32,766 nt of DNA from Rhodobacterales bacterium (GTDB lineage: Bacteria; Pseudomonadota; Alphaproteobacteria; Rhodobacterales; Rhodobacteraceae), in NCBI GenBank assembly GCA_017303485.1, contig JAFLCY010000036.1:1-32766 (forward strand). The letters run 5' to 3'. Positions 6,764 through 24,283 of the stretch are shown here, in pieces. Under the pieces are notes generated by a model, which was not told where the DNA came from, ran no database searches, and worked only from the letters and a program-made list of their open reading frames with translations. The number at the start of each line of letters is the position of its first letter. Within the stretch, counting starts at the first letter, position 1. Made by a program: the position numbers and the translations under genes.

Positions 6764-6767
6764 GATT

Positions 6768-7931: not shown

Positions 7932-7934
7932 GGC

Positions 7935-8909: not shown

Positions 8910-8931
8910 GTCCCGCCCTCCCAGCAGGGGC

Positions 8932-8980
8932 CAAATTTCTTGAGCAAGAAATTTGTCAAAATCCTTGCTCAAGGATTTTG
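8932..8980 (-). repeat. Double palindrome between bhcA and bhcB (copy 2)
   Basis: Two tandem palindromes: 8932-8955 (arms CAAATTTCTTG/CAAGAAATTTG) and 8957-8980 (arms CAAAATCCTTG/CAAGGATTTTG). They closely match copy 1 at 5677-5724 in sequence, order and spacing. In the transcript they begin one base after the bhcA stop (8982-8984) and end about 22 nt before the bhcB start, outside its ribosome site. The stems are 11 bp each, far more AT-rich than the surroundings. Confidence 0.8.
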
Positions 8981-8981
8981 C

Positions 8982-10172: not shown

Positions 10173-10201
10173 CGGGCAACTCCGTGAAAGACTGCCCGGA
10201 A

Positions 10202-10230
10202 TTTCTACGCCCTGCGACCAATGCGCACAA
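10202..10230 (-). promoter_or_regulatory. Candidate bhcA promoter
   Basis: On the minus strand TTGTGC (10225-10230) is followed after 17 nt by TAGAAA (10202-10207), a sigma70-like pair. The predicted start would lie near 10194, giving a leader of about 20 nt that still contains the GGAG site. The -10 is non-consensus, so this is tentative. Confidence 0.35.
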
Positions 10231-10232
10231 TT

Positions 10233-10250
10233 TTTTCGAAAAGATTTTTC
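10233..10250. promoter_or_regulatory. Candidate BhcR operator in the bhcA-bhcR spacer
   Basis: An AT-rich cluster in a GC-rich spacer: TTTTCGAAAA (10233-10242) is a perfect palindrome, and GAAAA (10238-10242) with TTTTC (10246-10250) forms a second, overlapping inverted repeat. It lies just upstream of the candidate bhcA -35, where an activator would bind. BhcR of P. denitrificans is reported to bind the bhcA upstream region in response to glyoxylate; that this is the site is my inference. Confidence 0.4.
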
Positions 10251-10324
10251 ACTGTCATGAACCCGTGCTATTCCCCATCTGCGTCAACAGCTTGCGATTT
10301 TTCAGCCCGGAGAGGACCCGGACC

Positions 10325-11140
10325 ATGGCACAGAAACCCCGCGGCCGCCCGAAGGCATTCAACGACAAGACCGACCAGAACACCGTGCAGGCGCTGGACC
10401 GGGGCCTGGACATCCTGACCCATGTCGCCCTGAATCCCGGCCGCACGCTGTCGGAAATCGCCGAGGACACCGGCGAGGCCATCGCCACCGTCTTCCGCGC
10501 CCTCGTCACCCTGCAGGGCCACGGCATGGTCGAGGTCGAGGAGCCCGGCCAGTTCTGGCACATCGGCCCCGGCGCCTTCCGCGTGGGGTCCGCCTTCCTG
10601 CGTCGGACCAAGGTGGTCGAACGCGCCCGCCAGCCGATGGACGCGCTGATGCGTGAAACCGGGGAAACCGCCAACCTTGGGATCGAGGTGAAGGACGAGG
10701 TCTTCTTCGTCGCCCAAGTCGAAACCTACGAGGCGATCCGCGCCTTCTTCCCGCCGGGCACCCGCGCGCCCATGCATTCCTCCGGCATCGGCAAGGCGCT
10801 GCTCGCCTGGTATCCCGAGGAGAAGACCCGCGGCATCCTCGCCCGCAAGGGGCTGGAGAAGTTCACCTCCCTCACCCTCACCAGCGACTCGGCTCTGCTG
10901 CGCGACCTCTCGCGTACCCGTGACCGGGGCTTTTCCATCGACGACCAGGAGCGCGCCGAGGGGATGCGCTGCGTCGCCGCGCCGATCTTCAATGCCCATG
11001 GCGAGCCGGTGGCGGGCCTTTCCGTTTCCGGCCCTGCCTTCCGCATGGGGCTGTCCGACGCGACGCGCATCGGGGCGCTGGTGCGGGCGGCGGCGGATCA
11101 GGTGACCGAGGCTACCGGCGGCGGCCTGCCGCAGGAGTGA
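10325..11140 (+). CDS. bhcR: IclR-family regulator of the glyoxylate cluster, BhcR
   Basis: A 271-residue IclR-type transcription factor. The N-terminal winged helix-turn-helix (about 18-80) contains TVQALDRGLDILTHVAL and LSEIAEDTGEAIATVFRAL. The C-terminal effector domain (about 95-265) includes NLGIEVKDEVFFVAQVE, the PMHSSGIGKALLAW stretch typical of the ligand pocket and GMRCVAAPIF. It is divergent from bhcA, as in P. denitrificans, where BhcR is the glyoxylate-sensing regulator of the cluster. The start ATG 10325 has GGAGAGGA upstream and begins with a basic GRPK tail; the frame is open back to 10184 but crosses the operator region. The identification depends on context and is strong. Confidence 0.9.
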   Translation: MAQKPRGRPKAFNDKTDQNTVQALDRGLDILTHVALNPGRTLSEIAEDTGEAIATVFRALVTLQGHGMVEVEEPGQFWHIGPGAFRVGSAFLRRTKVVERARQPMDALMRETGETANLGIEVKDEVFFVAQVETYEAIRAFFPPGTRAPMHSSGIGKALLAWYPEEKTRGILARKGLEKFTSLTLTSDSALLRDLSRTRDRGFSIDDQERAEGMRCVAAPIFNAHGEPVAGLSVSGPAFRMGLSDATRIGALVRAAADQVTEATGGGLPQE

Positions 11141-11226: not shown

Positions 11227-12729
11227 ATGACGAAGCCAAACCTCCTGATCCTGATGGTCGACCAGTTGAACGGGACGCTTTTCCCCGACGGCCCGGCCGA
11301 TTTCCTGCACGCTCCGAACCTGAAGCGCCTCGCCGCCCGTTCCGCCCGCTTCGCCAATTGCTACACCGCCTCGCCCCTCTGCGCCCCGGCGCGGGCCAGC
11401 TTCATGTCCGGCCAGCTGCCCAGCCGCACCCGGGTCTATGACAACGCCGCCGAATTCGCCTCGGACATTCCGACCTACGCCCATCACCTCCGCCGCGCGG
11501 GCTATTACACCGCCCTCTCCGGCAAGATGCATTTCGTCGGCCCCGACCAGCTGCACGGTTTCGAGGAGCGGCTGACCACCGACATATACCCCGCCGATTT
11601 CGGCTGGACCCCGGATTACCGCAAGCCGGGTGAGCGGATCGACTGGTGGTATCACAACCTTGGCTCGGTCACCGGCGCGGGCGTGGCCGAGATCACCAAC
11701 CAGTACGAATACGACGACGACGTCGCCTTCCAGGCGGTCCAGAAGCTCTACGACCTCTCGCGCGGCCTTGATCCCCGCCCTTGGGCGCTGACCGTCAGCT
11801 TCACCCACCCGCACGACCCCTTCGTCGCCCGCCGCAAATACTGGGACCTTTACGAAGGCGCCCCCGAATGCGAGCCGCCCGAGGGGCTGGCCTACGATGA
11901 CATGGACCCCCATTCCCGGCGCCTGATGGACGCCTGCGACTGGCGCTCGCTCACCATCACCCCAGACCACATCCGTCGCGCGAAACAGGCCTATTTCGCC
12001 AATATCTCCTATATCGACGACAAGATCGGCGAGATTCTGGCCGTGCTGGAGGCCACCCGTCAGGACGCCCAGATCCTCTTCCTCTCCGACCACGGCGAGA
12101 TGCTTGGGGAAAAGGGCCTGTGGTTCAAGATGAGCTTCTTCGAAGGCTCCTCCCGCGTCCCGCTGATGATCGCCGCCCCCGACATGCCCGCGAGGCGGGT
12201 CGACACCCCTGTCTCCTCGATCGACCTCGCCCCCACCCTTGCCGCGCTGGCCGGGATTTCCATGGCCGAGGTCGCCCCCTGGACCGAAGGCGTCAACCTG
12301 ATCCCGGTGGCAAACGGCGCCCCCCGCCCGCCCGTGGCGATGGAATACGCCGCCGAAGGCACGATCACCCCGATGGTGGCCCTGCGCGAGGGTGCCTGGA
12401 AATACACCCGCTGCCCCGCCGACCCCGAACAACTGTTCGACGTCGCTAACGACCCGGGCGAACGGCAGAACCTTGCCGCCGACCCCCGCACCACCGAAAT
12501 CCTTGCCCATTTCCGCGCCCTCGCCGACGCCCGCTGGGACCTCGCCGCCTACGACGCCGCCGTCCGCGAAAGCCAGGCCCGCCGCTGGGTGGTCTATGAG
12601 GCGCTGCGCAACGGCGCCTATTTCCCCTGGGACCACCAACCCCTGCGCGCCGCCAGCGAACGCTACATGCGCAACCACATGGACCTGAACGTGCTGGAGG
12701 ACAGCAAGCGGTTTCCAAGGGGGGAATAG
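11227..12729 (+). CDS. betC: Choline-sulfatase BetC
   Basis: A 500-residue type I sulfatase that hydrolyses choline-O-sulfate to choline and sulfate, probably in the cytoplasm since no signal peptide is seen. LLILMVDQL at 6-14 carries the metal-binding Asp12. The sulfatase signature SPLCAPARASFMSG supplies Cys52 for conversion to formylglycine (CxPxR). FLSDHGEMLGEKGLW is the second metal segment. The last 60 residues (RRWVVYEALRNGAYFPWDHQ, then YMRNHMDLNVLEDSKRFP) match the domain specific to choline-sulfatases, which makes BetC much more likely than a generic sulfatase. ATG 11227 has AAGGA 7 nt upstream. It converges with the betA-like gene; betB and betI are not in the window. Confidence 0.92.
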   Translation: MTKPNLLILMVDQLNGTLFPDGPADFLHAPNLKRLAARSARFANCYTASPLCAPARASFMSGQLPSRTRVYDNAAEFASDIPTYAHHLRRAGYYTALSGKMHFVGPDQLHGFEERLTTDIYPADFGWTPDYRKPGERIDWWYHNLGSVTGAGVAEITNQYEYDDDVAFQAVQKLYDLSRGLDPRPWALTVSFTHPHDPFVARRKYWDLYEGAPECEPPEGLAYDDMDPHSRRLMDACDWRSLTITPDHIRRAKQAYFANISYIDDKIGEILAVLEATRQDAQILFLSDHGEMLGEKGLWFKMSFFEGSSRVPLMIAAPDMPARRVDTPVSSIDLAPTLAALAGISMAEVAPWTEGVNLIPVANGAPRPPVAMEYAAEGTITPMVALREGAWKYTRCPADPEQLFDVANDPGERQNLAADPRTTEILAHFRALADARWDLAAYDAAVRESQARRWVVYEALRNGAYFPWDHQPLRAASERYMRNHMDLNVLEDSKRFPRGE

Positions 12730-12885: not shown

Positions 12886-14499
12886 TCACCGCGCGTTGCG
12901 CAGAACCGCCTCTGCCCCCTTCCAGCCCATCAGCATGGCAGGCGCATTCGTGTTCCCCGCGATGATGTTCGGGAAAGCACTGGCGTCGATCACCCGCAGC
13001 CCGCCGATGCCGTGCACACGCAGCCCTGCATCCACCACCGATGACGCCGCATCCCGCCCCATCCGGCAGGTGCAGCTCGGGTGATAGACCGTCCCCGACC
13101 GGGCGCGGAAATCATGGATCAGCGCGTCATCCGACTGCACCTCTGGCCCCGGCCGCAGTTCTTCCTTGATCAGACGTGCCATTGCCGGTTGCGCCGCGAT
13201 CTGGCGGAGGAACTTCACGGCAGCCAGCATCTCCTCGACATCGTTGTCCGTCGAAAACGCGTTCGCCGTGATCACCGGATGCTGCTGCGGGTCCGCGCTG
13301 CGAAGACGGATGTGCCCCCGGCTGGTCGGGCGGCAGTTCGACAACCCGATCGACATTCCCGACCAGGGATCTGGTGTCAACAACGGGCGTTCCCCTTCGC
13401 GCGGGATCAGGGTTGAGAACGCCTGGAAATACAACTGCATGTTTGGTCGGTCCAGCTCAGGCCGCGTGCGGAAGAACCCGCCGCCATGGTTGATCGACTT
13501 CGCCAAAGGCCCCCCGCCCCCCAGGAAATACTGGAGCCCGGCCCGGACCTTTCCCCACCAGGGCCGCAACTCGTCATTGTAGGTCGGCACCCTCATCGAC
13601 CAGGTGTAGTTGATCCCCTGATGGTCGCTCAGATGGTCGCCCACGTTCGGGTTGTCCAGCACAACCGGGATGCCCAGCGACTGCAACAGACCGCCCGGCC
13701 CGATCCCCGAAAGCTGCAACAGCTGTGGCGAGTTGATCGCCCCGCCACACAGGATCACCTCGGCCCTTGCCCACAAAACCCGCGTCTCGCCGCCCTGGCG
13801 GTACTCCACCCCCACGGCGCGACCAGCCTCGACCACCACCCGCGTCGCCAGAGCGTCAGTGATCACCCGCAGGTTCGCCCGCTTCATTGCCGGTCGCAAG
13901 AATGCCCGCGCCGCCGAGTTTCGCCGAGCGCGCCTGATCGTCATCTGGTAGACGCCCGCGCCCTCCTGCACCGCACCGTTGAAATCCGGGTTCTCCGCCA
14001 GCCCCGCCGCACCGCAGGCCGCGACATAGCTTTGCACCAAAGGATGCAAGCCCGTCCGGTTGGCCGAGATGAACAGCGGCCCGCCGGAGCCGCGCCAGTC
14101 ATCGCCGCCCGCCTCGTTGTCTTCCATCGCGCGGTAGGCGCTCAGGCACTCCTCCCAACCCCATCCCGGAGCCGCGCGCGCCCAGTCCTCGTAGTCTGCC
14201 CGATGCCCCCGGATCCAGACCATCGCATTGATGCTGGACGACCCGCCCAGAAGCTTGCCGCGTGGCCAATGGTCCCGGGCGCCGTTCAACCCCGGATCCG
14301 GCTCGGTCCGGTAAAGCCAGTTCACCAAGGGATCGTAGAACAGCTTTCCATACCCCAGCGGCAACTGCACATAGAACCGCCGGTCGGTGCCCCCCGCTTC
14401 AAGCAGGGTAACCTTGTGACGGCCATTGGCCGACAGCCGGTCGGCCAGCACAGAGCCTGCCGATCCCGCACCCACGATGATGTAATCGGTCTCGTCCAT
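12886..14499 (-). CDS. betA: GMC-family FAD oxidoreductase, choline dehydrogenase-like
   Basis: A 537-residue FAD-dependent alcohol dehydrogenase of the glucose-methanol-choline family. The N-terminal FAD fold has DYIIVGAGSAGSVLADRLS, and GKLLGGSSSINAMVWIRGH is the GMC signature. The C-terminal active-site region holds His473 (VYHPSCTCRMG) and an Asn in GNTNAPAMLMGWKGAE, the His-Asn pair found in many choline dehydrogenases. Choline dehydrogenase would oxidise choline to betaine aldehyde, and the facing betC gene supports that, but the GMC family also includes aliphatic and polyethylene-glycol alcohol dehydrogenases of the same length. The ATG at 14497-14499 has only a weak ribosome site. FAD binding is certain, substrate moderate. 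Confidence 0.75.
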   Translation of the reverse strand: MDETDYIIVGAGSAGSVLADRLSANGRHKVTLLEAGGTDRRFYVQLPLGYGKLFYDPLVNWLYRTEPDPGLNGARDHWPRGKLLGGSSSINAMVWIRGHRADYEDWARAAPGWGWEECLSAYRAMEDNEAGGDDWRGSGGPLFISANRTGLHPLVQSYVAACGAAGLAENPDFNGAVQEGAGVYQMTIRRARRNSAARAFLRPAMKRANLRVITDALATRVVVEAGRAVGVEYRQGGETRVLWARAEVILCGGAINSPQLLQLSGIGPGGLLQSLGIPVVLDNPNVGDHLSDHQGINYTWSMRVPTYNDELRPWWGKVRAGLQYFLGGGGPLAKSINHGGGFFRTRPELDRPNMQLYFQAFSTLIPREGERPLLTPDPWSGMSIGLSNCRPTSRGHIRLRSADPQQHPVITANAFSTDNDVEEMLAAVKFLRQIAAQPAMARLIKEELRPGPEVQSDDALIHDFRARSGTVYHPSCTCRMGRDAASSVVDAGLRVHGIGGLRVIDASAFPNIIAGNTNAPAMLMGWKGAEAVLRNAR

Positions 14500-14655
14500 T
14501 GCGGCCCCGCTATCCGGCAGTCAGCCTAGACGCGCGCTTTGGCAGGAACCGTCCGTTTCACGACACCGGATGTCGCCGCCGGAACGGCTCCTCGTTCGCC
14601 TTCGTCTTCTCGTCACAAGTTCCTCGGAAGGAGAGAGACAGTCATCGACGAGCCG

Positions 14656-15126
14656 TCAACCCGCCACGTCAAACGTGGGCTCATACTCCACCGGGAAATT
14701 CACCGACCGGGCGATGAAGCAGACCTCGTGGATACGGTGGTGGATCGCCTCGGCCTTGGCCAGATCGGTCCCCGCCTTCACCGTGACATGCGGCCGAAGC
14801 GTGACCTTCAGGAATCGACCGGCCCCACCGCGACCAACCTCGCCCACACCGAGCGGAGCATCGGAATAACCCGTCACCACGATCCCCGCATCGGACGCAT
14901 AGTGCAGATACCAGAGCATGTGACAGGCCGAGAGCGCGCTGAGCAGCAGATCCTCCGGGTTCATCTTGCCCGGATCGCCCCCCAGCAGTGGATCGTTGGA
15001 ACAGTGAACCAATGCCTTTCCCGGCACCGCGATGTCCCAGGTCCGGTCGTAGGCTTTGTAATGTGCCGTCCCTTCGCCCCGGTTGCCGGTCCAGAGGATA
15101 CGGGTGGTGTAGTCGTGGTTGGGCAT
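14656..15126 (-). CDS. osmC: OsmC/Ohr-family thiol peroxidase
   Basis: A 156-residue OsmC-fold protein. The family reduces organic hydroperoxides with two cysteines. Here Cys68 lies in MNPEDLLLSALSACHMLWYL and Cys136 in HHRIHEVCFIARSVNFPV, matching the two conserved positions; Cys42 (LVHCSND) is an extra. The length is normal. The start ATG 15124-15126 has a purine-rich GAGAGA upstream. An inverted repeat at 15141-15158 lies just ahead of the start. A decayed copy of the first half of this gene lies 1.1 kb upstream at 16220-16423, on the other side of a glycosyltransferase gene. The subfamily is closer to the YhfA/OsmC-like branch than to classical Ohr; the substrate is unknown. Confidence 0.85.
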   Translation of the reverse strand: MPNHDYTTRILWTGNRGEGTAHYKAYDRTWDIAVPGKALVHCSNDPLLGGDPGKMNPEDLLLSALSACHMLWYLHYASDAGIVVTGYSDAPLGVGEVGRGGAGRFLKVTLRPHVTVKAGTDLAKAEAIHHRIHEVCFIARSVNFPVEYEPTFDVAG

Positions 15127-15140
15127 GGGGGTCTCTCGGA

Positions 15141-15158
15141 TTGAACTGCGTGGTTCAA
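15141..15158. promoter_or_regulatory. Candidate operator upstream of osmC
   Basis: TTGAAC (15141-15146) and GTTCAA (15153-15158) form a perfect inverted repeat with 6-nt spacing, 14 nt upstream of the osmC start. The size and symmetry suit a dimeric winged-helix repressor. Which regulator, if any, binds is unknown. Confidence 0.3.
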
Positions 15159-15248
15159 GGCGGGCTCGGCGTTGATCCTCATCACTCTGCGCGTAACGCC
15201 CGGTTCGCTGCGGACTTGGTCGCTACGTCCGCGGGATGGCTGCGCTGT

Positions 15249-16076
15249 TCAGCTCTTCACACCGGCCGGGCTCCCCGCGTGGTCGGCAAGCCAACGGGCC
15301 GATGTCGACAGGTCCGACCAACCACAAAGGGCCGCAAGGAACTCCGGGTCGCGATCTGTGCTGACCGCCACTTTCTTCATGAACTCCGACCCTTTGCGCA
15401 ACTTGTAGCGTTGCTTCATTCGATGCAGTCGCGAGGACGTCAGCTTCGTGACCGGCGTCCCCACCGGCAGCACCGCGCGCCATTTCCGGCACATGTACTC
15501 ATAGCATTGGTCGAAGTCTGGTCCGAGCTCGATATGCAGGCCATCATTGTGAATGCAGGGCAGAGCGCCGGCATAGACTCCCTTGCCCATGGCAATCGCG
15601 GTCAAGGTGATGTCGGTTCCGTAGAGATGCCAACCCGGCAAGGCGTCATCGAACCGGACTCCGGACGCGCGTCGCACAACGATGAGCATTTCATCCAGCG
15701 ATCTGACGGGCATGGGCGACAACGGCACCAGGCCGGAGAACCCGCCAAGCGAGGACGACCATACCGGCCCCCAGCCAAGACCGTCAGCGGCAACTCCGTA
15801 GGCGCCGATGACCGCCCAGTCGGGGTCCTTTGCCTCTACCTCGGCAATCCGGGCCTGCAGGAGCAGGTCCCAACCGGCGGGAAGAAAGACATCGTGATGA
15901 GCGAACACAAGGACCGGCTCGCTGGTCGCGTCGATTGCACGGTTATAGCCAATGCTGGCCGAAACAGCCGCTTCTTCTACCCGGTAGGTCCAAAGCCCCG
16001 CACAGGGCGACCGGTCAAGGTTTGCTGACCTGATCTCGACCGAATGACTGTTCGCGCACAATGCAAAATTTGCCAT
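15249..16076 (-). CDS. StrF-like glycosyltransferase family protein
   Basis: A 275-residue protein resembling the glycosyltransferase-like family named after StrF (GT-A fold). Seen: SASIGYNRAIDATSEPVLVFAHHDVFLPAGWD (39-70, in two adjoining stretches), which is the typical N-terminal nucleotide-sugar region with an acidic HHD motif at 60-62. Later come WAVIGAYGVAADG and a C-terminal ALPGWHLYGTDITLTAIAMG, where the acidic pair may serve catalysis. There is no membrane segment. The N-terminal FALCANSHSVEIRSANL is the expected first strand, so ATG 16074-16076 is probably right although no ribosome site precedes it; a good promoter ends 5 nt before it. Base composition looks less GC-rich than the neighbours, and the gene sits between an osmC gene and an osmC remnant, which suggests insertion by transfer. 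Acceptor and sugar are unknown. Confidence 0.7.
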   Translation of the reverse strand: MANFALCANSHSVEIRSANLDRSPCAGLWTYRVEEAAVSASIGYNRAIDATSEPVLVFAHHDVFLPAGWDLLLQARIAEVEAKDPDWAVIGAYGVAADGLGWGPVWSSSLGGFSGLVPLSPMPVRSLDEMLIVVRRASGVRFDDALPGWHLYGTDITLTAIAMGKGVYAGALPCIHNDGLHIELGPDFDQCYEYMCRKWRAVLPVGTPVTKLTSSRLHRMKQRYKLRKGSEFMKKVAVSTDRDPEFLAALCGWSDLSTSARWLADHAGSPAGVKS

Positions 16077-16081
16077 GCCGC

Positions 16082-16109
16082 ATATTATGATCTGCGCCTA
16101 CTAGGTCAA
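16082..16109 (-). promoter_or_regulatory. Strong sigma70-like promoter of the glycosyltransferase gene
   Basis: On the minus strand TTGACC (16104-16109), a 16-nt spacer and TAATAT (16082-16087) form the best sigma70-type pair I see in the window. Only 5 nt separate the -10 from the start codon, so the predicted transcription start falls on the ATG itself. That implies a leaderless mRNA or a later start codon. Confidence 0.55.
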
Positions 16110-16219
16110 CAGAAGGAACACATCGAAATGCGGAGCCTTGGCCGATATTCAATGCCCTGAAGGAGTGCCTGGACACCACGTTCCCCGCGTTGCTTGCAAG
16201 TTTTAGATTGGAATTTTCC

Positions 16220-16423
16220 ACTGGCCAAAACAGCGCTAAGGATCGCGCCCTCCGGGTTCATCTTTGCCAGAACGCCGCCCGGAACTGGATCGTTCGAGCA
16301 ATGGACCACGGCCTTTCCCTGCACCGCCATGTCCCGGGTTTGATCGCAGGCCATGCACTGCCCTTTCCCTTCGCCCCGGTGACCAGTTCAGAGAGTGCTG
16401 GTGGTGCCGTCTTGCCTGGGCAT
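16220..16423 (-). pseudogene. Truncated, stop-containing osmC paralogue
   Basis: The minus strand from ATG 16421-16423 translates as MPRQDGTTSTL, stop, TGHRGEGKGQCMACD, then TRDMAVQGKAVVHCSNDP and AKMNPEGAILSAVLAS. This aligns without gaps to residues 1-67 of the intact OsmC at 14656-15126 (MPNHDYTTRILW..., TWDIAVPGKALVHCSNDP, KMNPEDLLLSALSA). Trp12 has become a TGA stop, and similarity ends just before the first catalytic cysteine. The catalytic C-terminal half is absent. The 16077-16487 interval holds nothing else beyond this remnant, the glycosyltransferase promoter and a REP-like palindrome. A tandem duplication followed by decay or by insertion of the glycosyltransferase region explains it. 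Confidence 0.8.
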
Positions 16424-16440
16424 TTTCATCTTTGCCTCAC

Positions 16441-16487
16441 GGCGGGCTATCTGCCCCCGTTACCCGAGCTTGGGCAGATTGCCCGCC
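16441..16487 (-). repeat. REP-like long palindrome abutting the caiD stop
   Basis: Arms of 16 bp, 16441-16456 and 16472-16487, with a single mismatch and a 15-nt loop. The right arm touches the caiD stop codon (16488-16490). The core GGGCAATCTGCCC is shared with the palindrome at 6708-6763. It is a likely 3' end structure of the carnitine operon. Confidence 0.7.
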
Positions 16488-17285
16488 CTACTTCCCTTTC
16501 CAAACCGGGTCTCGCTTCTCGGCGAAGGCCTTCGCGCCCTCCAGCTGGTCCTCGCTGGAATACAATCGGTCCACAGTCGGCATCTGCCGCTTGGTGATCC
16601 GGTTCAGCGCGTCCTGGAAGCGCATGTTCTCCGCCTCGCGCACCACTTCCTTGATCGCGGCGTAGACCAGGGGCGGGCCTGACTCCAGCAGGCGCGCAAG
16701 GTCCCAGGCTTTCCCCAGCAGATCCTCCGGCTCGCAGACCTCCTTCACAATCCCCCAGCGATGCGCCTCCTCAGCATCAAACCAGCGCCCGGTAAGCAGC
16801 AGGTCCATCGCCACATGATAAGGAATGCGCTTCGGCAGCTTGATCGAGGCCGCATCCGCCACCGTGCCCGAGCGGATTTCCGGCAGGGCGAAGGTGGCAT
16901 TGGTCGAGCACAGGATCAGGTCCGCCGACAAGGCCAGCTCCAGCCCGCCACCGCAGCAGATACCCTGCACCGCCGCGATCACCGGCTTGTTGAGGTTCGG
17001 CAGTTCCTGAAGGCCGCCGAAGCCACCAACCCCATAGTCGCCGTCCACCGCATCGCCCTCGGCGGCGGCTTTCAGGTCCCAGCCGGGGCAGAAGAACTTC
17101 TCACCCGCCGCCCGCAGGATGCAGACCCGCAAGCTCTCGTCGTCCCGGAAGTCCCGGAACACCAGCCCCATCACGCGGCTGGTCTTCAGGCTGATCGCAT
17201 TGGCCTTGGGCGCGTCCAGCGTCACCTCAAGAATGGCCCCCTCGCGCCGGGTCTTCACCGGGCCTTCGGTCCGCATTTCCATCAT
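16488..17285 (-). CDS. caiD: Carnitinyl-CoA dehydratase-like enoyl-CoA hydratase
   Basis: A 265-residue crotonase-fold enzyme strikingly similar to E. coli CaiD, which interconverts crotonobetainyl-CoA and L-carnitinyl-CoA. Shared stretches are ILEVTLDAPKANAI, AGEKFF, GWDLKAAAEG and the C-terminal FAEKRDPVWKGK. Glu116 (GGGLELAL) and Glu136 (LPEIRSG) correspond to the two catalytic acids, and the GGG at 112-114 belongs to the oxyanion hole. It is the last gene of the carnitine operon. Its ATG overlaps the TGA of the CoA ligase gene by 4 bp (17282-17285), so translation is coupled. A general enoyl-CoA hydratase is the alternative, but the C-terminal signature and context favour CaiD. Confidence 0.88.
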   Translation of the reverse strand: MMEMRTEGPVKTRREGAILEVTLDAPKANAISLKTSRVMGLVFRDFRDDESLRVCILRAAGEKFFCPGWDLKAAAEGDAVDGDYGVGGFGGLQELPNLNKPVIAAVQGICCGGGLELALSADLILCSTNATFALPEIRSGTVADAASIKLPKRIPYHVAMDLLLTGRWFDAEEAHRWGIVKEVCEPEDLLGKAWDLARLLESGPPLVYAAIKEVVREAENMRFQDALNRITKRQMPTVDRLYSSEDQLEGAKAFAEKRDPVWKGK

Positions 17286-19270
17286 GCTCTCCTCACCAAA
17301 GCATCCACCGCCACGGCGCCCGTCTCGCGCACCATGACCGGATTGATCTCGATTTCCTCAAGGCTCTCGTCCGCCAGCATCAGCGCGCCAAGCCGGACCG
17401 CGATCTCCGCCACCGCCGCCATGTCGGCTTTCGGACGTCCCCGGTAGCCGTCGAGCAGCGGCCAAAGCCGCAAGCGCTTCATCGTCCCCAGCACCTCGGC
17501 CTCAGTCACCGGCAAGACCAGTGTCACCGTGTCCGCCAGCACCTCTGCCGTGACCCCGCCCATGCCCAGGGTCAGGGTGACGCCGTAGACCGGATCGCGC
17601 CGCAGGCCCAGAAGCACCTCGGCCACCGCTCCGGTCACCATCTCCTCGACCAGATAGCCCGAGGCCCCCGGCATCTCGGCCTGCCCCTCCAGCGAGGGAA
17701 GCCCCAGCCGCACCGCCCCCGCCTCGGTCTTGTGGGCAAAGCCCAGACCCTTCAGCACGTAGGGCGCGCCAAAGCGCACCTTCCGCGCGACTTCAGCAAT
17801 CGAAGCGCCCGTCACCGACCCCGGCACCGCGACCCCCGCCGAAGCCAGGAGTTCCTTGCCCTCGGCCTCGCTCAGCATCTGGCTGTCGCGCGGCGCCAGC
17901 GCCACCACCGGCCTCCACCCTTCAACGCCCGGGGCGGTCTGCGCTGCGGTCACCGCCGCCAGGGCCGTCTCCAGCCCCAGAAGCGCGCAAACCCCGTCTT
18001 CCATCATCGCCTGCACCCGGCCTTCGCCAAAGTTCTCTGCCATCGAGGCCACCGGGAAGGCCATCTTCCCCGTCGCCTTCTGCGCATCGACAATCGCCCG
18101 GAAGGCCGGATCATAGCCCGACGGATCACAGCGGTCGGCGCGTGGACTGTCGATGATGTAAAGCCCCGCGTCATAGGCGTCGAGCATCGCGCTGAACACC
18201 TCCGTCGTCTTCGGCCCATCACCCCAGATGAAGGTATGATAGTCCAACGGGTTGGAGATCGTCGGAATCTCCCCCAGCACCGCGAAGAGCCGGTCATGCG
18301 TGGCCTGCGGCACCGGCGGGAAGTCGATCCCGTAAGGCGCGGCAAGGTCCGCCACCAGCCCCGCCTCGCCGCCGGAGCAGGACAGCGAACAGATTCTGGT
18401 CCCGATCTGCGGTCCGTGGACATGGAATATCTTCAGCGTCTCGATCAGTTCCGAGGGCGTGTTCACCTCCGCCACCCCGATCTGCCGCAGGAAGGCACTG
18501 GACGCGGCCCCGCCTCCGGCCAGCGAAGCCGTATGGCTGGCCGCCGCCGTGCGCGACAGCTCGGTCTTGCCCGACTTGATCGCCACAACGCCCTTGCCCA
18601 TTTCACGCGCCTTTTCGGCCAGCGCGGCAAAGGCCGGGGCATCGTCGATCCCCTCGATGTAAAGCCCCACCGCCGTCACCCGGGGATCATCCAGCAAGGC
18701 CCCGGTCAGTTCCGCCAGCCCGACCACGGCGGCATTGCCCAGACAGGCGACGTAGGCGACCGGCAGCCCGCGCTGCTGCATCCCCATGTTGATCACGATG
18801 TTCGAGGACTGGCTGACCAGCGCCACCCCCTTGTCCACCCGGATGCCACCATGCTGGTCTGGCCACAGAAGCGCGCCGTCGAGGTAATTGATCACCCCGT
18901 AGCAGTTGGGCCCGAGGATCGGCATATCGCCCGCCGCCGCGACCAGCCGGTCCTGCAATCCCGGCTCCCCCGCTTCCGTCCAGCCGGACGCAAAGCAGAT
19001 CGCCCCGCCCGCACCCATCGCGGCAAGGTCTGCAACCACTTCGATGGTCGCGAAGCGATTGACGCCGATGAAGGTCGCATCGGGGGCTTCCGGCAGGTCG
19101 GCGAGACTTGCGTAGGCCTTCATCCCCCCGATCTCGGCCTTGGTCGGATGCACCGGCCAGACCGGGCCCTGGAAGCCCATCTTGCGGCACTGCTCGATGA
19201 CGTTCAGCGCCCAGCCTGCGCCGAAGACCGCAATGTGACGTGGGCGGAGGAGACGGTCGAGGCGGCTCAT
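17282..19270 (-). CDS. ADP-forming acyl-CoA synthetase (acetate-CoA ligase family), probably for carnitine or its precursors
   Basis: A 662-residue single-chain NDP-forming CoA ligase. The order is a CoA-binding Rossmann domain (about 5-130, HIAVFGAGWALNVIEQ), succinyl-CoA-synthetase-like ligase domains (about 145-440) with the phosphohistidine His246 in AAASHTASLAGGG, and a C-terminal ATP-grasp domain (about 465-655) with APYVLKGLGFAHKTEAGAV and EIEINPVMV. The family makes acyl-CoA from acid, CoA and ATP through a phosphohistidine and releases ADP. Sitting between the acyl-CoA dehydrogenase and caiD, it plausibly replaces the AMP-forming ligase CaiC and activates gamma-butyrobetaine, crotonobetaine or carnitine; run in reverse it would recover ATP from carnitinyl-CoA. 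Substrate is inference. The ATG at 19268-19270 is preceded by a 261-bp gap holding two repeat copies. Confidence 0.82.
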   Translation of the reverse strand: MSRLDRLLRPRHIAVFGAGWALNVIEQCRKMGFQGPVWPVHPTKAEIGGMKAYASLADLPEAPDATFIGVNRFATIEVVADLAAMGAGGAICFASGWTEAGEPGLQDRLVAAAGDMPILGPNCYGVINYLDGALLWPDQHGGIRVDKGVALVSQSSNIVINMGMQQRGLPVAYVACLGNAAVVGLAELTGALLDDPRVTAVGLYIEGIDDAPAFAALAEKAREMGKGVVAIKSGKTELSRTAAASHTASLAGGGAASSAFLRQIGVAEVNTPSELIETLKIFHVHGPQIGTRICSLSCSGGEAGLVADLAAPYGIDFPPVPQATHDRLFAVLGEIPTISNPLDYHTFIWGDGPKTTEVFSAMLDAYDAGLYIIDSPRADRCDPSGYDPAFRAIVDAQKATGKMAFPVASMAENFGEGRVQAMMEDGVCALLGLETALAAVTAAQTAPGVEGWRPVVALAPRDSQMLSEAEGKELLASAGVAVPGSVTGASIAEVARKVRFGAPYVLKGLGFAHKTEAGAVRLGLPSLEGQAEMPGASGYLVEEMVTGAVAEVLLGLRRDPVYGVTLTLGMGGVTAEVLADTVTLVLPVTEAEVLGTMKRLRLWPLLDGYRGRPKADMAAVAEIAVRLGALMLADESLEEIEINPVMVRETGAVAVDALVRRA

Positions 19271-19288
19271 GCGCGGCCTCCGGCCCCG

Positions 19289-19336
19289 CCGGGGGCGTTG
19301 CCCCCGGACCCCCAGGATACTTGGAGACAGAAAATA
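19289..19336 (+). repeat. GATATTT-type dispersed element, copy B (inverted)
   Basis: On + an 8-bp hairpin, CCGGGGGC (19289-19296) with GCCCCCGG (19300-19307), is followed by CAGGATACTTGGAGACAG and an A-run. It has the same order as the other copies but points against the flanking operon. With copy C at 19468-19522 it bounds about 130 bp in inverted orientation. Confidence 0.55.
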
Positions 19337-19467
19337 GGAACACCCCGCCCCGGAATCCGAAGCGAGGTGCCATTTCCCGTCACGGTCATCGGCGTCCCCG
19401 CCTGTACCGTGCAGCCAGAATCGCCGATTAACCTTAACGCGCGGTTACCAAGGCCCGAGGAAGTCTG

Positions 19468-19522
19468 CATTTTCTGTCCCTAAATATCCCACGGGGAGCG
19501 CGAGGGGTGTGAAACCCCTCGC
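19468..19522 (-). repeat. GATATTT-type dispersed element, copy C, after the acyl-CoA dehydrogenase gene
   Basis: Read on the minus strand: a hairpin GCGAGGGG/CCCCTCGC (arms at 19500-19507 and 19515-19522), then GGGATATTTAGGGACAG and AAAA. It starts 9 nt after the stop of the acyl-CoA dehydrogenase gene. It resembles a terminator or processing site inside the operon. Confidence 0.6.
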
Positions 19523-19531
19523 TCCGACTTC

Positions 19532-20698
19532 TCAACCCCCGACCGCCCGCAAGAGTTCGCGGCTGATGATGTGGCGCTGGATCTCCGAGGTGCCCTCCCA
19601 GATCCGCTCCACCCGGCTATCGCGCCAGATGCGCTCCAGCGGCAATTCATCCATAAGCCCCATGCCGCCATGGATCTGGATCGCCTCGTCCGCCACCATC
19701 GCCAGCACTTCGGTCGCCTTCAGCTTGGCCATCGACATGTCGGCCTCGGTCACCGTGCCCTGGTCGTATTTCCAGGCCGCTTCCCGCGTCAGAAGCTCCG
19801 CAGCTTTCAGCTCCATCGCCATGTCGGACAGCTTGAAACTGATGCCCTGGAACTTGCCAATCTGCTGGCCGAACTGCTTGCGCTCGGCCGCATAGGAAAC
19901 CGCATGGCCCAAGGCCCGCTCCGCCCGGCCAAGGCAGGTCGAGGCGACCTGCAGCCGCGTCGCCCCGAGCCAGGAATTCGCCACCTCGAAGCCCTTGTGC
20001 GGCTCACCAAGCACGTTCGCCGCGGGCACCCGGCAGTCGTCGAACTCCAGCACCGCGTTGGTGTAGCCGCGGTGCGAGACGTTGCGATAGCCCTCGCGCA
20101 CGGTAAATCCCGGCGTACCCTTGTCCACAAAGAACGCGGTGATCAGCTTCTTCGGCCCGCGCGGGGTCTGTTCCTCGCCGCTCGCCATGAAGCAGATCGC
20201 GAAGCCTGCAAGGTCGGCGTGAGAGATGAAATGCTTGGTGCCGTTCAGCACCCAGTCACCACCGTCCTGACGCGCCGAAGCCTTCATCCCCCGCAAATCC
20301 GACCCCGCGCCGGGTTCGGTCATCGCCAGGCAATCCCAGGTCTCGCCCCGGATGCAGGGCATCAGGTAGCGTTCGCGCTGGTCGGCGTTGCCGGCCAGAA
20401 GGATGTTCGACGGCCGCGCCACGCAGGTCCAGTGCAGCGCATAGTTCGCCCGGCCCAGTTCTTTCTCGTAGAGAAGCCAGGACAGCGTATCGAGCCCCGC
20501 GCCGCCCAGTTCCACCGGCATGTTGGCGGCATAAAGCCCCGCCGCCATCGCCTTCTGCTGGATCTCGCGGATCAGCTCCAATGGCAGCACGCCGCTGCGT
20601 TCCACCGCCTGCTCATGCGGGTAAAGCTCCGCCTCGACGAAGGCGCGCGTCGTGTCGACGATCATCGCCTGTTCTTCGGTCAGTCCGAAATCCATCAT
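19532..20698 (-). CDS. Acyl-CoA dehydrogenase of the carnitine operon
   Basis: A 388-residue flavoprotein of the acyl-CoA dehydrogenase family. The N-terminal helical domain starts at FGLTEEQAMIVDTTRAFVE. The middle domain has the FAD motif AMTEPGAGSDLRGMK. The C-terminal domain has RKQFGQQIGKFQGISFKLSDMA and QIHGGMGLMDELPLERIWRD, then the terminal EGTSEIQRHIISREL typical of the family. In this operon the likely job is oxidation of gamma-butyrobetainyl-CoA to crotonobetainyl-CoA; the sequence does not resemble E. coli CaiA closely, so this is inferred from neighbours only. The start ATG 20696-20698 overlaps the TGA of the cdhA-cdhB gene by 4 bp, and a second ATG follows directly. FAD dehydrogenase class is certain, substrate open. 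Confidence 0.85.
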   Translation of the reverse strand: MMDFGLTEEQAMIVDTTRAFVEAELYPHEQAVERSGVLPLELIREIQQKAMAAGLYAANMPVELGGAGLDTLSWLLYEKELGRANYALHWTCVARPSNILLAGNADQRERYLMPCIRGETWDCLAMTEPGAGSDLRGMKASARQDGGDWVLNGTKHFISHADLAGFAICFMASGEEQTPRGPKKLITAFFVDKGTPGFTVREGYRNVSHRGYTNAVLEFDDCRVPAANVLGEPHKGFEVANSWLGATRLQVASTCLGRAERALGHAVSYAAERKQFGQQIGKFQGISFKLSDMAMELKAAELLTREAAWKYDQGTVTEADMSMAKLKATEVLAMVADEAIQIHGGMGLMDELPLERIWRDSRVERIWEGTSEIQRHIISRELLRAVGG

Positions 20699-22185
20699 GT
20701 CCTCGCCCGATCAATCGCTTGTCCAACCGCCCGGCCCGCGCCTTCCGGCAAGGGCAGCCCGGCATGGGCCTCTGCAATCGCCTTCAGGTTCCGCCAGACC
20801 TCCGGCGCCGCTGGCACCGTCTTGCCCGCCTTCATGTCGACGTGAAGGCACAACTGTTCGATGGTCGCCACGCAAGTGTCACCGACCATCACCCGGACAA
20901 AGCTGCGGAAGCGCTTCTCGTCCGCCGAGATGATCTGCAACTCGCCCCGCACCTGATCGCCCAACTTCGCCTCGCCCAGATGGCGGATATGCGTTTCGGC
21001 CGAATAGAAGGAATGCCCCGCCGCGACATAGTCCATCCCCGCCCCGATGGTGCGCAGGAAGTTGTCTACCGTCTCCGAGTTCACGAAGTAATACCGGCTT
21101 TCGGTCATGTGGCCGTTGTAGTCGATCCAGCCCGGCAGCACCTGGCCCTGGTACATCACCAGCGGCGCGGCCTTGGCACCACTATCGAGGCCCGCCTGCA
21201 TCTTGGCATGGAAGTCGGCAGCCCGACGTTCATCATGCTCGCGCAGCACCTTCCCCGCACCCCAGTTCCGCTCCTTCAGTGAACGCAGGAAGCCCACGAG
21301 GTTGCGGTCGCGGATCCGTTCCAGCTCGCGGATGCCATACATGCCGGACTGCGCGTCGGACTGGTTCGCCACCAGGTCCACCAGCTCGTCATTGAACTCG
21401 GGCACGTCCATCAGCTTGGTCCAGGGCCATTTCAGCGCCGGGCCGAACTGCGCCATGAAATGCCGCATCCCGGCCTCGCCGCCCGCAATCCGGTAGGTCT
21501 CGAACAGGCCCATCTGCCCCCAGCGCAGGCCAAAGCCCATGCGGATCGCCTCGTCGATCTCTTCCGTGGTGGCGATGCCGTCCTTCAGCATCCACAGCGC
21601 CTCGCGCCAGACGGCCTCAAGGAAGCGGTTGCCGATGAAGGCGTCGATCTCATGGCGAATGACAAGCGGGAACATCCCGATGTCCTTCATGATCTGCACG
21701 GTCTTTTCGACGGTTTCCGGCGTGTTCTTCTCCGATCCTGACACCTCGGACAGGGGCAGCAGGTAGACCGGGTTGAACGGATGCGCGACGATGATGTTCT
21801 CCGGCGCGGGCGAGCCCTGCTGCAGGTCGCTGGCCTTGAACCCGCTGGTCGAGGCCCCGATCAGCACGCCGGGATTGGCCTGCTGCAACTGGGCATAGAC
21901 CTTGTGCTTCAGCTCAATCCGCTCGCTGACCGATTCCTGCACATATTCCGCGCCCTCGACCGCCTCGCCGATGGTGTCGTGGAACGTCAGCTTGCCCTCG
22001 ACCGGCATCGGCACGTCCGACAGCGCGGGCAGCGCCGCCCGGGCGTTGGCCATCACCTCGGCGATCTTGCGTTCCGCCTGCGGATCGGGGTCGAACACCC
22101 CCACATCCCAACCGTTCAACAGGAACCGCGCGGCCCAGCCGCCGCCAATAACCCCGCCACCGATGATTGCCGCTTTCCGTGCCAT
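20695..22185 (-). CDS. cdhA: Carnitine 3-dehydrogenase fused to betainyl-CoA thioesterase
   Basis: A 496-residue two-domain enzyme. Residues 1-315 are an NAD-dependent 3-hydroxyacyl-CoA dehydrogenase-like carnitine dehydrogenase: Rossmann motif IIGGGVIGGGWAARF (7-21), the catalytic His135 in AHPFNPVYLLPLSEV and the DAFIGNRFLEAVWREAL helix. Residues 342-480 are a hotdog-fold thioesterase with WIDYNGHMTESRYYF (acidic-Asn-His motif at 355-359). The first part oxidises L-carnitine to 3-dehydrocarnitine; the second would hydrolyse betainyl-CoA to glycine betaine. Similar 497-residue fusions are known in rhizobia, while Pseudomonas has separate cdhA and cdhB. ATG 22183-22185 has AGGAG 5 nt upstream. 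The gene lies directly after cdhC. Confidence 0.9.
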   Translation of the reverse strand: MARKAAIIGGGVIGGGWAARFLLNGWDVGVFDPDPQAERKIAEVMANARAALPALSDVPMPVEGKLTFHDTIGEAVEGAEYVQESVSERIELKHKVYAQLQQANPGVLIGASTSGFKASDLQQGSPAPENIIVAHPFNPVYLLPLSEVSGSEKNTPETVEKTVQIMKDIGMFPLVIRHEIDAFIGNRFLEAVWREALWMLKDGIATTEEIDEAIRMGFGLRWGQMGLFETYRIAGGEAGMRHFMAQFGPALKWPWTKLMDVPEFNDELVDLVANQSDAQSGMYGIRELERIRDRNLVGFLRSLKERNWGAGKVLREHDERRAADFHAKMQAGLDSGAKAAPLVMYQGQVLPGWIDYNGHMTESRYYFVNSETVDNFLRTIGAGMDYVAAGHSFYSAETHIRHLGEAKLGDQVRGELQIISADEKRFRSFVRVMVGDTCVATIEQLCLHVDMKAGKTVPAAPEVWRNLKAIAEAHAGLPLPEGAGRAVGQAIDRART

Positions 22186-22279
22186 TCTGTCTCCTCGTGG
22201 GGTTCACCCCCTCACACTCGCCTTCCCCCAAGGGAATGAGAGCTCGCTTCCGCGTACAACCTGCAAATCCTGCGGCCCC

Positions 22280-22320
22280 GGTGCTTCCCTCCCCGCTCAC
22301 GGGGAGAGAGGATGGGCACC
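22280..22320 (-). repeat. Palindromic repeat between cdhC and cdhA
   Basis: An inner hairpin CTCCCCG (22289-22295), 4-nt loop, CGGGGAG (22300-22306), lies inside outer arms GGTGC (22280-22284) and GCACC (22316-22320). The CTCCCCGTGAGCGGGGAG type is a common proteobacterial REP-like sequence. It starts about 10 nt after the cdhC stop and may stabilise or separate the cdhC message. Confidence 0.55.
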
Positions 22321-22330
22321 GCCCGATGGG

Positions 22331-23245
22331 TCACTTCCCCACCGGCGCCCGCTTCTCTAGCTTCAGCCGGGCGCGCACCTCTGCCGGGGTGATCACCCGG
22401 GCGCCCATGTTCTCGATGATGGTGGTGGCGCGCTCCACCAGCTGCGCATTGGTGGCCAGCACGCCCTTGTCGAGCCAGAGGTTGTCCTCCAGCCCGACGC
22501 GCACGTTGCCACCAGCCAGCGTGGCGGCGGCGACATAGGCCATCTCGTTGCGCCCCAGCCCGAAGGCGCTGAAGTGCCACCCGGCGGGCACGTTGTTCAC
22601 CATCGCCATGAAAGTGTTGAGGTCATCCGGCGCGCCCCACGGCACCCCCATGCAGAGCTGCACCAGCACCGGCTCCGGGATCACGCCTTCCTTCACCAGC
22701 TCCTTCGCCAGCCACAGATGGCCGGTGTCGAAGGCCTCGATCTCGATCCTGACCCCCGCCGCCGCCATCCTGCGGCCCATGTCGCGCAGCATGCCCGGCG
22801 TGTTGACCATCACATAATCGGCCTCGTTGAAGTTCATCGTGCCGCAGTCCAGCGTGCAGATCTCCGGCAGGCATTCGACGATATGGGCAACCCGCTCCTC
22901 AGCGCCGCACATGTCGGAATGGGCCGCCATCCGGTCCATGGACTCGGTGCCGTCGAACATCATGTCGCCGCCCATCCCGGCGGTCAGGTTCAGGACCACG
23001 TCGGTGTCACTGTCGCGGATGCGGTCGGTGACCTCGCGGTAGTATTCCAGCTTGCGTGACGGCTTCCCCGTCTCCGGGTCGCGCACATGGCAATGCACCA
23101 CCGCCGCCCCAGCCTTGGCCGCCGCAATCGCGCTTTCGGCGATCTGCTTCGGCGAGCGCGGCACATGAGGGCTGCGATCCTGCGTGCCGCCCGATCCGGT
23201 CACGGCGCAGGTGATGAAGACTTCCTTGTTCATGTTCAGCGGCAT
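22331..23245 (-). CDS. cdhC: Dehydrocarnitine cleavage enzyme (BKACE/DUF849 family)
   Basis: A 304-residue zinc-dependent beta-keto acid cleavage enzyme. For this family in carnitine catabolism the reaction is 3-dehydrocarnitine plus acetyl-CoA giving betainyl-CoA plus acetoacetate. Seen: ITCAVTGSGG at the N-terminus, the zinc-binding VVHCHVRDPETG (His51, His53), the TAGMGGDMMF loop and IEIEAFDTGHLWLAKEL. ATG 23243-23245 has GGGGAGG 5 nt upstream; the frame is open further up to 23452, but that stretch crosses the divergent promoter region and the regulator gene. It is the first gene of the carnitine operon, divergent from a cdhR-like regulator, as in Pseudomonas. The alternative, 3-keto-5-aminohexanoate cleavage in lysine fermentation, does not fit the context. 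Confidence 0.9.
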   Translation of the reverse strand: MPLNMNKEVFITCAVTGSGGTQDRSPHVPRSPKQIAESAIAAAKAGAAVVHCHVRDPETGKPSRKLEYYREVTDRIRDSDTDVVLNLTAGMGGDMMFDGTESMDRMAAHSDMCGAEERVAHIVECLPEICTLDCGTMNFNEADYVMVNTPGMLRDMGRRMAAAGVRIEIEAFDTGHLWLAKELVKEGVIPEPVLVQLCMGVPWGAPDDLNTFMAMVNNVPAGWHFSAFGLGRNEMAYVAAATLAGGNVRVGLEDNLWLDKGVLATNAQLVERATTIIENMGARVITPAEVRARLKLEKRAPVGK

Positions 23246-23297
23246 GGTGGCCTCCCCGATTTCGATCCCCAGCATAGCCCGCTTGCCAGCCCGCGCT

Positions 23298-23312
23298 TTG
23301 CACATTACGCAA
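23298..23312. promoter_or_regulatory. Candidate operator between cdhC and cdhR
   Basis: TTGC (23298-23301) and GCAA (23309-23312) form an inverted repeat with a 7-nt AT-rich centre, 5 nt before the cdhR start and inside the 72-bp divergent spacer. It could serve both genes. The half-sites are short, so this is tentative. Confidence 0.3.
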
Positions 23313-23317
23313 TCTGC

Positions 23318-24283
23318 ATGACGGGAAATGCCATCTTTCAACCCTCTGACGGCCCGCTGACTCTCGCGCTCCTCGTGCTGCCGCAGGCCTCCATCCTTGA
23401 AGTCGCCTCCGCGCTCGACCCCTTGCGCAATGCCAACCGCCATCTCGGGCATGAAGCCTACCGCTGGCGCGTCGTCTCACCCGACGGGGCACCGGTGCCG
23501 CTGACTTGCGGCATCGAGCTTCCCTCCTCCGGCCCGCTCTCGCATGCGGTCGGGGCCGAGGCGCTGATCGTGGTTGCCGGTTACCGCCTGGGCGAGGTGG
23601 CGACGCGTCCGCTGATCCGCGACCTGCGCCGCATCGCCCCGCGGTTCCAGCTGGTCGGCGGCATCGACGCCGGACCCTGGGTTCTGGCAAGGGCCGGTCT
23701 CCTCGACGGCCACCGCGCCACCGTGCATTGGGAAGATCTCGAAGACCTCGCGGCCAGTCACCCCGACATCGACGTGGTGCCCGACCGCTTCGTGATCGAC
23801 CGCAACCGCGTGACGATCGCAGGCGCCGCGCCCGCGACCGATTTCATGCTGCACCTGATCCGCGCCCGCCACGGGGCTGCGCTGGCCCGGCAGGTCGCCT
23901 CCAGCTTCCTTGCCACGGTGCGCAAGGGCTCAGAGCCGCAGATCGCCCCCGAGGCACAGGAACCCGCGCTTGACCCGCGTGTCGCCGCCGCCCTGGCCCG
24001 AATGGAGGCGCGGATCGACAGCCCGGAACCTGTCCACGCCATGGCCCGCGCCATCGGGCTGTCGCCCCGCCGTCTGGAAACCCTGTTCCGCGCCGCCCTC
24101 GGCACCACGCCGGCCGCCCACGCGCTGGACCTGCGCCTGCAGGCCGCCCGCCGCATGCTGACCGACACCCCGCACCCCTTGGCGGAAGTGGCGCTGCGGA
24201 CTGGCTTTTCCAGCCCGTCCACCCTGTCGCGCGCCTTCAGGTCACGATTTGGCCAGACGCCCGGTTCCTTGCGAAGCTCCTGA
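23318..24283 (+). CDS. cdhR: GATase1-like AraC-family regulator, CdhR-type
   Basis: A 321-residue transcription factor with an N-terminal DJ-1/PfpI-like (GATase1-like) sensor domain (about 12-195) and a C-terminal AraC double helix-turn-helix (about 215-318). The sensor has GGIDAGPWVLARAGLLDGHRATVHWE, in which the usual catalytic Cys position is Asp117, so it should bind a ligand rather than catalyse. The DNA-binding part has AIGLSPRRLETLFRAALGTTP and LAEVALRTGFSSPSTLSRAFRSRFGQTP. This architecture is that of CdhR, GbdR and SouR, which respond to carnitine, glycine betaine and sarcosine. The divergent carnitine operon points to a CdhR role. ATG 23318 lacks a clear ribosome site; the longer frame from 23087 overlaps cdhC. 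Confidence 0.85.
   Translation: MTGNAIFQPSDGPLTLALLVLPQASILEVASALDPLRNANRHLGHEAYRWRVVSPDGAPVPLTCGIELPSSGPLSHAVGAEALIVVAGYRLGEVATRPLIRDLRRIAPRFQLVGGIDAGPWVLARAGLLDGHRATVHWEDLEDLAASHPDIDVVPDRFVIDRNRVTIAGAAPATDFMLHLIRARHGAALARQVASSFLATVRKGSEPQIAPEAQEPALDPRVAAALARMEARIDSPEPVHAMARAIGLSPRRLETLFRAALGTTPAAHALDLRLQAARRMLTDTPHPLAEVALRTGFSSPSTLSRAFRSRFGQTPGSLRSS

Follow-up and report, generated by a model that had tools for sequence, protein, structure and literature searches.

A conserved carnitine operon of Rhodobacteraceae with an NDP-forming ligase and a probable route in from gamma-butyrobetaine

The closest described systems for carnitine breakdown are the caiX-cdhCAB-hocS operon of P. aeruginosa, controlled by CdhR according to excerpts of PMC5806209, and the cdh pathway of S. 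meliloti, for which a citing paper, likewise in excerpt, reports a dual-function dehydrogenase/thioesterase. In R. pomeroyi, CdhABC production is raised on N-osmolytes (PMC12478193, in excerpt). The cai operon of E. coli is anaerobic and runs towards butyrobetaine, and strain HK4 (Rhizobium/Agrobacterium-like, Lonza) is reported to make carnitine from butyrobetaine in a manner resembling the degradation of fatty acids (PMC2131755, review passages). The DNA analyzed here is a 32,766-nucleotide stretch of a Rhodobacterales genome (hereafter the window; the source genome comprises 257 contigs and is 99.84% complete and 6.22% contaminated). It carries a five-gene operon that shares CdhA, CdhB and CdhC chemistry and a divergent GATase1-AraC regulator with the P. 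aeruginosa and S. meliloti systems, and a CaiD-like hydratase and a predicted CoA-ester chemistry on betaines with that of E. coli. The operon probably joins an upper module, comprising an acyl-CoA dehydrogenase (ACAD), an acyl-CoA ligase (ACD) and the hydratase (ECH), to the aerobic carnitine pathway, leading from gamma-butyrobetaine through its CoA ester, crotonobetainyl-CoA, L-carnitinyl-CoA and carnitine to glycine betaine. No such upper module is named for P. aeruginosa in the excerpts of PMC5806209.

Family calls were made by Pfam and NCBIfam profile scans, with nine proteins around the operon scanned for Pfam. The five genes and the regulator given by a first-pass annotation of the sequence are all present in the span it assigned them, and their domains were confirmed:

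16488..17285, minus strand: ECH, CaiD-like crotonobetainyl-CoA hydratase, 265 aa (CaiD alignment, NCBIfam PRK03580)
17282..19270, minus strand: ACD, NDP-forming acyl-CoA ligase, 662 aa, with phospho-His H246 and signature residues W136 and W349 (Pfam, AlphaFold2 model, tree)
19532..20698, minus strand: ACAD, acyl-CoA dehydrogenase, 388 aa, WEGTSEIQ motif, proposed gamma-butyrobetainyl-CoA dehydrogenase (Pfam, PDB matches, alignment)
20695..22185, minus strand: CdhA-CdhB fusion (CdhAB), carnitine 3-dehydrogenase and betainyl-CoA thioesterase, 496 aa (NF005716; 3HCDH_N, 3HCDH, 4HBT_2)
22331..23245, minus strand: CdhC (BKACE), 3-dehydrocarnitine cleavage, about 304 aa (PF05853, 334.6 bits)
23246..23317, no strand: divergent promoter/operator region, 72 bp, with a TTACGnAA core (alignment with relatives)
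about 23318..24283, plus strand: CdhR/GbdR-like GATase1-AraC (DJ-1/PfpI and AraC) regulator (PF01965 and PF12833)

This gene content and order are observed directly, as are the families, the expected catalytic residues, and the conservation and co-occurrence described below. The CdhAB/ACAD and ACD/ECH pairs each overlap by 4 nt, and gaps of 261 bp and 145 bp separate ACAD from ACD and BKACE from CdhAB, respectively. The cdhC start is most likely at 23245, because a ribosome-binding-site-like GGGGAGG lies upstream; together with a regulator start at about 23318, in a reading frame open from 23087, this leaves the 72-bp divergent region.

The lower steps follow from established pathway knowledge. 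The CdhAB fusion scores 742.5 bits against the NCBIfam model of carnitine 3-dehydrogenase, above the cutoff of 592, and contains a 4HBT_2 thioesterase domain, and BKACE adjoins the CdhA-type gene. The regulator scores 186.6 bits against the NCBIfam GbdR model, below its cutoff of 480, and the TTACGnAA core of the divergent region is kept in a 53-row alignment of the window and 52 relatives. In the proposed pathway ACD would phosphorylate its own histidine from ATP, form gamma-butyrobetainyl-CoA and release ADP; ACAD would oxidize this ester to crotonobetainyl-CoA, passing electrons to ETF; and ECH would convert the product to L-carnitinyl-CoA. CoA would then be removed either by the CdhB thioesterase domain or by ACD working in reverse. 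CdhA would convert carnitine to 3-dehydrocarnitine, which BKACE, with acetyl-CoA, would turn into betainyl-CoA and acetoacetate, leaving CdhB to yield glycine betaine. We infer every upper-module substrate, the formation of ADP, any recovery of ATP and the way in which CoA leaves carnitinyl-CoA.

Close relatives were collected by a pattern scan of GTDB genomes, and the best 80 of 204 confirmed stretches, about 70–93% identical, were compared; the closest ligase matches among them belong to Tabrizicola and other Rhodobacteraceae. Sixty-two of the 80 extend at least 4.8 kb before and at least 850 bp after ACD. The five genes stand in window order in 60 of these 62, which argues against a chance arrangement, and a divergent CdhR-like match accompanies 49 of the 60. 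The two exceptions (L050 and L053, Defluviimonas) have the order ACAD-ACD-ECH, a regulator of 33–34% identity, and no cdh genes in the stretch. Since the 80 relatives are close kin, wider samples were used. ACD (E <= 1e-80) is found in 103 and CdhAB in 113 of 149 family genomes, with both in 99, ACD only in 4, CdhAB only in 14 and neither in 32 (Fisher p = 2e-17, uncorrected for kinship); the two genes start at most 12 kb apart in 39 of the 99. In 240 genomes of the class, where CdhAB was scored at E <= 1e-60 and split CdhA is thereby included, ACD occurs in 23, CdhAB in 33 and both in 21 (Fisher p = 1e-19). Such nesting, with ACD rarely found without CdhAB and CdhAB often without ACD, is the pattern expected if the carnitine pathway had been extended upstream. 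Loci with cdh genes were retrieved for 12 of the 14 family genomes that have CdhAB only, one of these loci measuring just 4.7 kb; they contain no ACAD match, and their sole hydratase match is generic (30%). Co-occurrence of the five genes, suggested as a check in the first-pass annotation, is strongly positive (60/62 by order, 99 of 103 ACD genomes with CdhAB in the family, 21 of 23 in the class), and the three distal genes accompany the carnitine genes as a set.

ECH and E. coli CaiD share 53% identity across 253 aa (BLAST). Its best NCBIfam model is crotonobetainyl-CoA hydratase PRK03580 (304.8 bits, cutoff 500 unmet), and both crotonase active-site glutamates, at what we take to be the catalytic positions, align with CaiD. 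ACAD comprises the N, middle and C acyl-CoA dehydrogenase domains (Pfam), and its best PDB matches are short-chain acyl-CoA dehydrogenases (SCADs). It is 31% identical to E. coli CaiA and scores 178.3 bits against the CaiA-type model (cutoff 540); at the presumed SCAD-type catalytic position the alignment places Glu in the window protein and Gly in CaiA. Given this identity and the different residue, ACAD is not a CaiA ortholog; it seems to be a short-chain-type dehydrogenase that was recruited separately. E. coli CaiB, CaiC and CaiT have no BLAST match among 12 window proteins (CaiB and CaiC at E 1e-5), a further difference from the cai operon; the ligase is thus a homolog of neither CaiC nor CaiB, and the earlier statement that it is not a CaiC homolog stands. 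ACADs of Asp and Glu form flank the carnitine module, for example in L129, L130 and L093.

ACD contains CoA_binding_2, Succ_CoA_lig and ATP-grasp_5 domains (Pfam). Its AlphaFold2 model, built from 25 sequences (pLDDT 79.6, pTM 0.81), is closest among PDB structures to DddX (7cm9; TM score 0.83, 27% identity), followed by 4-hydroxybutyryl-CoA synthetase and PatZ. A midpoint-rooted tree of 102 ACD rows splits into 72 and 30 rows with an SH-aLRT of 100. The phospho-His (H246 in the window) is aligned in all 102. W349 is found in 72/72 clade rows against 0/30 outside, and W136, whose column is that of DddX Tyr181, in 67/72 against 0/30; the five clade rows without W136 are distant members. T346, D374, P376 and E412 are further residues of the clade. 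These features suggest that the two tryptophans may form a site for the trimethylammonium group. The clade could be an undescribed family of reversible ADP-forming betaine:CoA ligases, with a two-Trp quaternary-ammonium site, that charge gamma-butyrobetaine and unload L-carnitinyl-CoA, replacing CaiC and CaiB and making activation near ATP-neutral; this fuller proposal is put forward tentatively, and the balance is rather against it. In 50 listed plasmid records, out of 157 that matched, the ligase, where named, is an 'acetate--CoA ligase family protein' or an 'acyl-CoA synthetase'.

DddX shares with the window ACD the fold, a single chain of CoA-binding and ATP-grasp parts, and the phospho-His. 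As the nearest solved structure, it raises the question of whether ACD is a DddX-type enzyme acting on dimethylsulfoniopropionate or another onium acid, with ACAD and ECH handling acryloyl-CoA and the genes lying beside cdh because both sets handle onium compounds. The top NCBIfam model for ACAD is indeed an acryloyl-CoA reductase (287 bits, cutoff 640). DddX nevertheless lies among the 30 non-clade rows, across the split from the window protein, although on a long branch of uncertain placement; an identity of about 30% to DddX is background for many ACDs; and the hydratase is CaiD-like. In docked DddX the sulfonium lies at Trp391 and Phe435, and the substrate has Tyr181, Asp208 and Glu432 close by (PMC8163506, in excerpt). 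In the clade alignment Glu432, the proposed base for dimethyl sulfide release, is not conserved, and the aromatic positions differ: MAFFT gives the window protein His, Asp and Gly at DddX columns 391, 432 and 435, in a loop of uncertain alignment, whereas phmmer sets W349 against Trp391. DddX was therefore rejected as a specific relative of ACD, as its tree placement and background-level identity make this unlikely, and a DddX-type function for the operon appears very improbable.

A different fate for the same CoA ester is known from the bbu cluster of Emergencia timonensis, which acts on gamma-butyrobetainyl-CoA and whose BbuA is an ACAD-like protein (PMC8364193, in excerpt). Were the window ACAD a trimethylamine lyase of this kind, yielding trimethylamine and crotonyl-CoA, the route would have no use for the hydratase, CdhAB and BKACE, whose genes accompany that of ACAD. 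As described in the literature, the bbu cluster uses CoA transferases and the lyase in place of a ligase and hydratase, and a scan of nine proteins around the operon gave no match to a CoA-transferase family. We regard a lyase function as very improbable.

The butyrobetaine pathway is further supported by the company that the ligase clade keeps. Sixty-six of the 72 clade rows have flanks of at least 2.5 kb on both sides, and in 54 of them both ACAD (at least 45% identity) and a CaiD-like hydratase occur within 5 kb; within 8 kb, CdhAB is found in 29, BKACE in 30 and a GlxA-type regulator in 38. At the same thresholds neither ACAD nor a CaiD-like hydratase is present in any of seven background ACD loci. 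ACAD also bears on a racemization or salvage scheme, in which ACD would charge D-carnitine or crotonobetaine, the hydratase would interconvert them via crotonobetainyl-CoA, and L-carnitine would enter the cdh pathway, ACAD being a side activity or electron outlet. A CaiD-like hydratase suits such chemistry, and one locus (L122) has a CaiD-like gene, BKACE and CdhAB with no ACAD or ACD match. The scheme would nonetheless make needless an ACAD that is kept, at 45% identity or more, in 59 of the 66 loci, and the window ACAD keeps Glu at the SCAD-type catalytic position; salvage is thus unlikely, if a more serious contender than the two schemes above. Of the two entry compounds first proposed, gamma-butyrobetaine and crotonobetaine, the former is the better fit, because ACAD implies a saturated starting acid; crotonobetaine, like D-carnitine, fits less well.

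The upper module can also stand alone. On the R. pomeroyi megaplasmid it comprises SPO_RS21280, 21275, 21270 (DJ-1) and 21265 with a GlxA regulator of its own, and no cdh genes were found in the 26-kb stretch around it; in two genomes (G022, G154) it lies on a different stretch from cdh, again with its own GlxA-type regulator. These separate copies suggest that the module is an addition to the cdh pathway. Paracoccus methylovorus has module and cdh genes side by side with a regulator each, and Thioclava has all five genes in a different order. The operon is also found on plasmids of named Rhizobium, Neorhizobium and Sulfitobacter strains, with all five genes in window order in Rhizobium johnstonii 3841 pRL10, Rhizobium NZLR1, both Neorhizobium records and Sulfitobacter W027. 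Downstream of it in Neorhizobium NCHU2750, on the opposite strand, are genes for a dioxygenase and for dimethylglycine dehydrogenase; the two would fit a further degradation of glycine betaine. Some genomes have a DJ-1/PfpI gene between ACD and ECH (L129, 14017-14622; also L090, L145 and L175). Three stretches from another class of the same phylum (L207, L208, L211) carry an ACD of 38–39% and an ACAD of 56% identity with a generic hydratase, and no cdh match in the 17–18 kb read.

Several observations weigh against the butyrobetaine pathway or parts of it. ECH, ACAD and ACD all score below their NCBIfam equivalog cutoffs, and the window ACAD is not CaiA-like. Among 132 distinct related stretches at 48% identity or more (from 138 locus hits including the window), the ACAD catalytic position is Glu in 87 and Asp in 44, with one not read. 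The substrate loops of the AlphaFold2 model have pLDDT < 50, too weak for placing the tryptophans, and in 3/30 rows outside the clade (DddX, L105b, L187) a Trp lies no more than six columns from W349. Twelve of the 66 clade loci are incomplete (ACAD only in 5, hydratase only in 3, neither in 4). Because most of these are distant members (9 of the 12, at 32–40% identity to the window ACD), some with generic hydratases only, substrates may differ towards the base of the clade. In one stretch (L126, 9522-13400) a non-clade ACD of 25% identity adjoins CdhA-like (50%) and CaiD-like (45%) genes, so the clade is perhaps not the sole ligase of its kind; this ACD groups weakly with DddX and is perhaps a second, independent betaine ligase. 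The P. aeruginosa CdhR site, two GGTCGC half-sites with a 15-bp spacer, has no match in the window at spacers of 13–17, and the 72-bp divergent region contains no GGTCGC half-site. Finally, the ACD module and butyrobetaine dioxygenase were expected to exclude one another if both start from butyrobetaine, and this was not found: TIGR02409-like genes (E <= 1e-60) occur in 6/14 CdhAB-only against 37/99 CdhAB+ACD genomes of the family sample, and in 9/12 against 17/21 of the class sample. Since the prediction failed, either the two routes coexist or these dioxygenase-like proteins do other work. The TIGR02409 cutoff itself is passed in only 3/149 family and 8/240 class genomes, and the six proteins that were scanned have matches to the TmpA and TMLD models as well. 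The source genome has no TIGR02409 match, but the control genomes gave none either. Dioxygenase-like genes adjoin cdh in L119 and L121, where ACD was not found.

A class II aldolase (about 50% identity) lies near the module in nine loci (L133, L134, L141, L148, L150, L151, L152, L154, L174), with a TauD-type dioxygenase in L133, L134, L150 and L174, and is possibly part of a feeder pathway for butyrobetaine. Trimethyllysine breakdown was set aside as an explanation of the aldolase, since hydroxy-trimethyllysine aldolases are expected to use pyridoxal phosphate. An ABC transporter and a CocE-type hydrolase lie 3' of the operon in both Rhizobium records, and in one relative (L028) such a transporter cassette is a few kb from the operon. 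In the source genome a matching cassette is on another contig (G000:C216, about 13100-20180, equal to L228 7110-14177; substrate-binding protein 56%, ATPase 68%, hydrolase 43% identity). This cassette is a candidate butyrobetaine/carnitine importer.

Two further genes lie downstream of ECH in the window:

14656..15126, minus strand: OsmC-like protein (Pfam and comparison with relatives)
12886..14499, minus strand: GMC oxidoreductase, choline-dehydrogenase-like, scoring under the model cutoff (NCBIfam and relatives)

An OsmC-like gene is found at most 2.5 kb downstream of ECH in 19/57 relatives, the nearest at 43 bp, and is possibly an original member of the operon; a GMC oxidoreductase is present within 3.5 kb in 32/57. 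Beside ECH, 16223-16423 is a decayed copy of the first 67 osmC codons (58% identity, one stop). Between the decayed and intact copies lies an orphan gene of 275 aa (15249-16076), which has a match at that place in 1/57 relatives and whose protein has no Pfam or PHROGs match. Farther out, 5731-11140 holds a complete beta-hydroxyaspartate cycle cluster (bhcA, bhcB, bhcC, bhcD and BhcR, all over NCBIfam cutoffs), and 11227-12729 a choline-sulfatase (854.7 bits, cutoff 433.45). As the latter adjoins the choline-dehydrogenase-like GMC gene, the window resembles an island devoted to quaternary ammonium compounds.

The operon is real, conserved and widespread, and the first reading of it is largely right, though unproven. 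Its presentation as a new hybrid of chemistries was overstated, as the HK4 route is a precedent (PMC2131755, review passages) and this gene arrangement is frequent among Rhodobacteraceae and in plasmids of Rhizobiaceae. HK4 shares the butyrobetaine-to-carnitine chemistry, and Rhizobium and Neorhizobium plasmids carry the same operon as the window; the likeness to HK4 is one of reported chemistry, and the review passages contained no HK4 gene sequences. What appears to be new is not the chemistry but the use of an ADP-forming ligase clade in place of CaiC. No description of an ADP-forming butyrobetaine ligase was found in the consulted parts of the open-licence PMC literature, and the ADP-forming ligase of PMC11291895 (in excerpt) acts on acetate. 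If the proposed pathway is correct, the operon would identify genes by which soil and marine Alphaproteobacteria make carnitine from butyrobetaine, and would assign a function to a ligase now named only in general terms. It would also offer an ATP-sparing alternative to CaiC in carnitine production, and would allow these bacteria to convert butyrobetaine to glycine betaine without release of trimethylamine.

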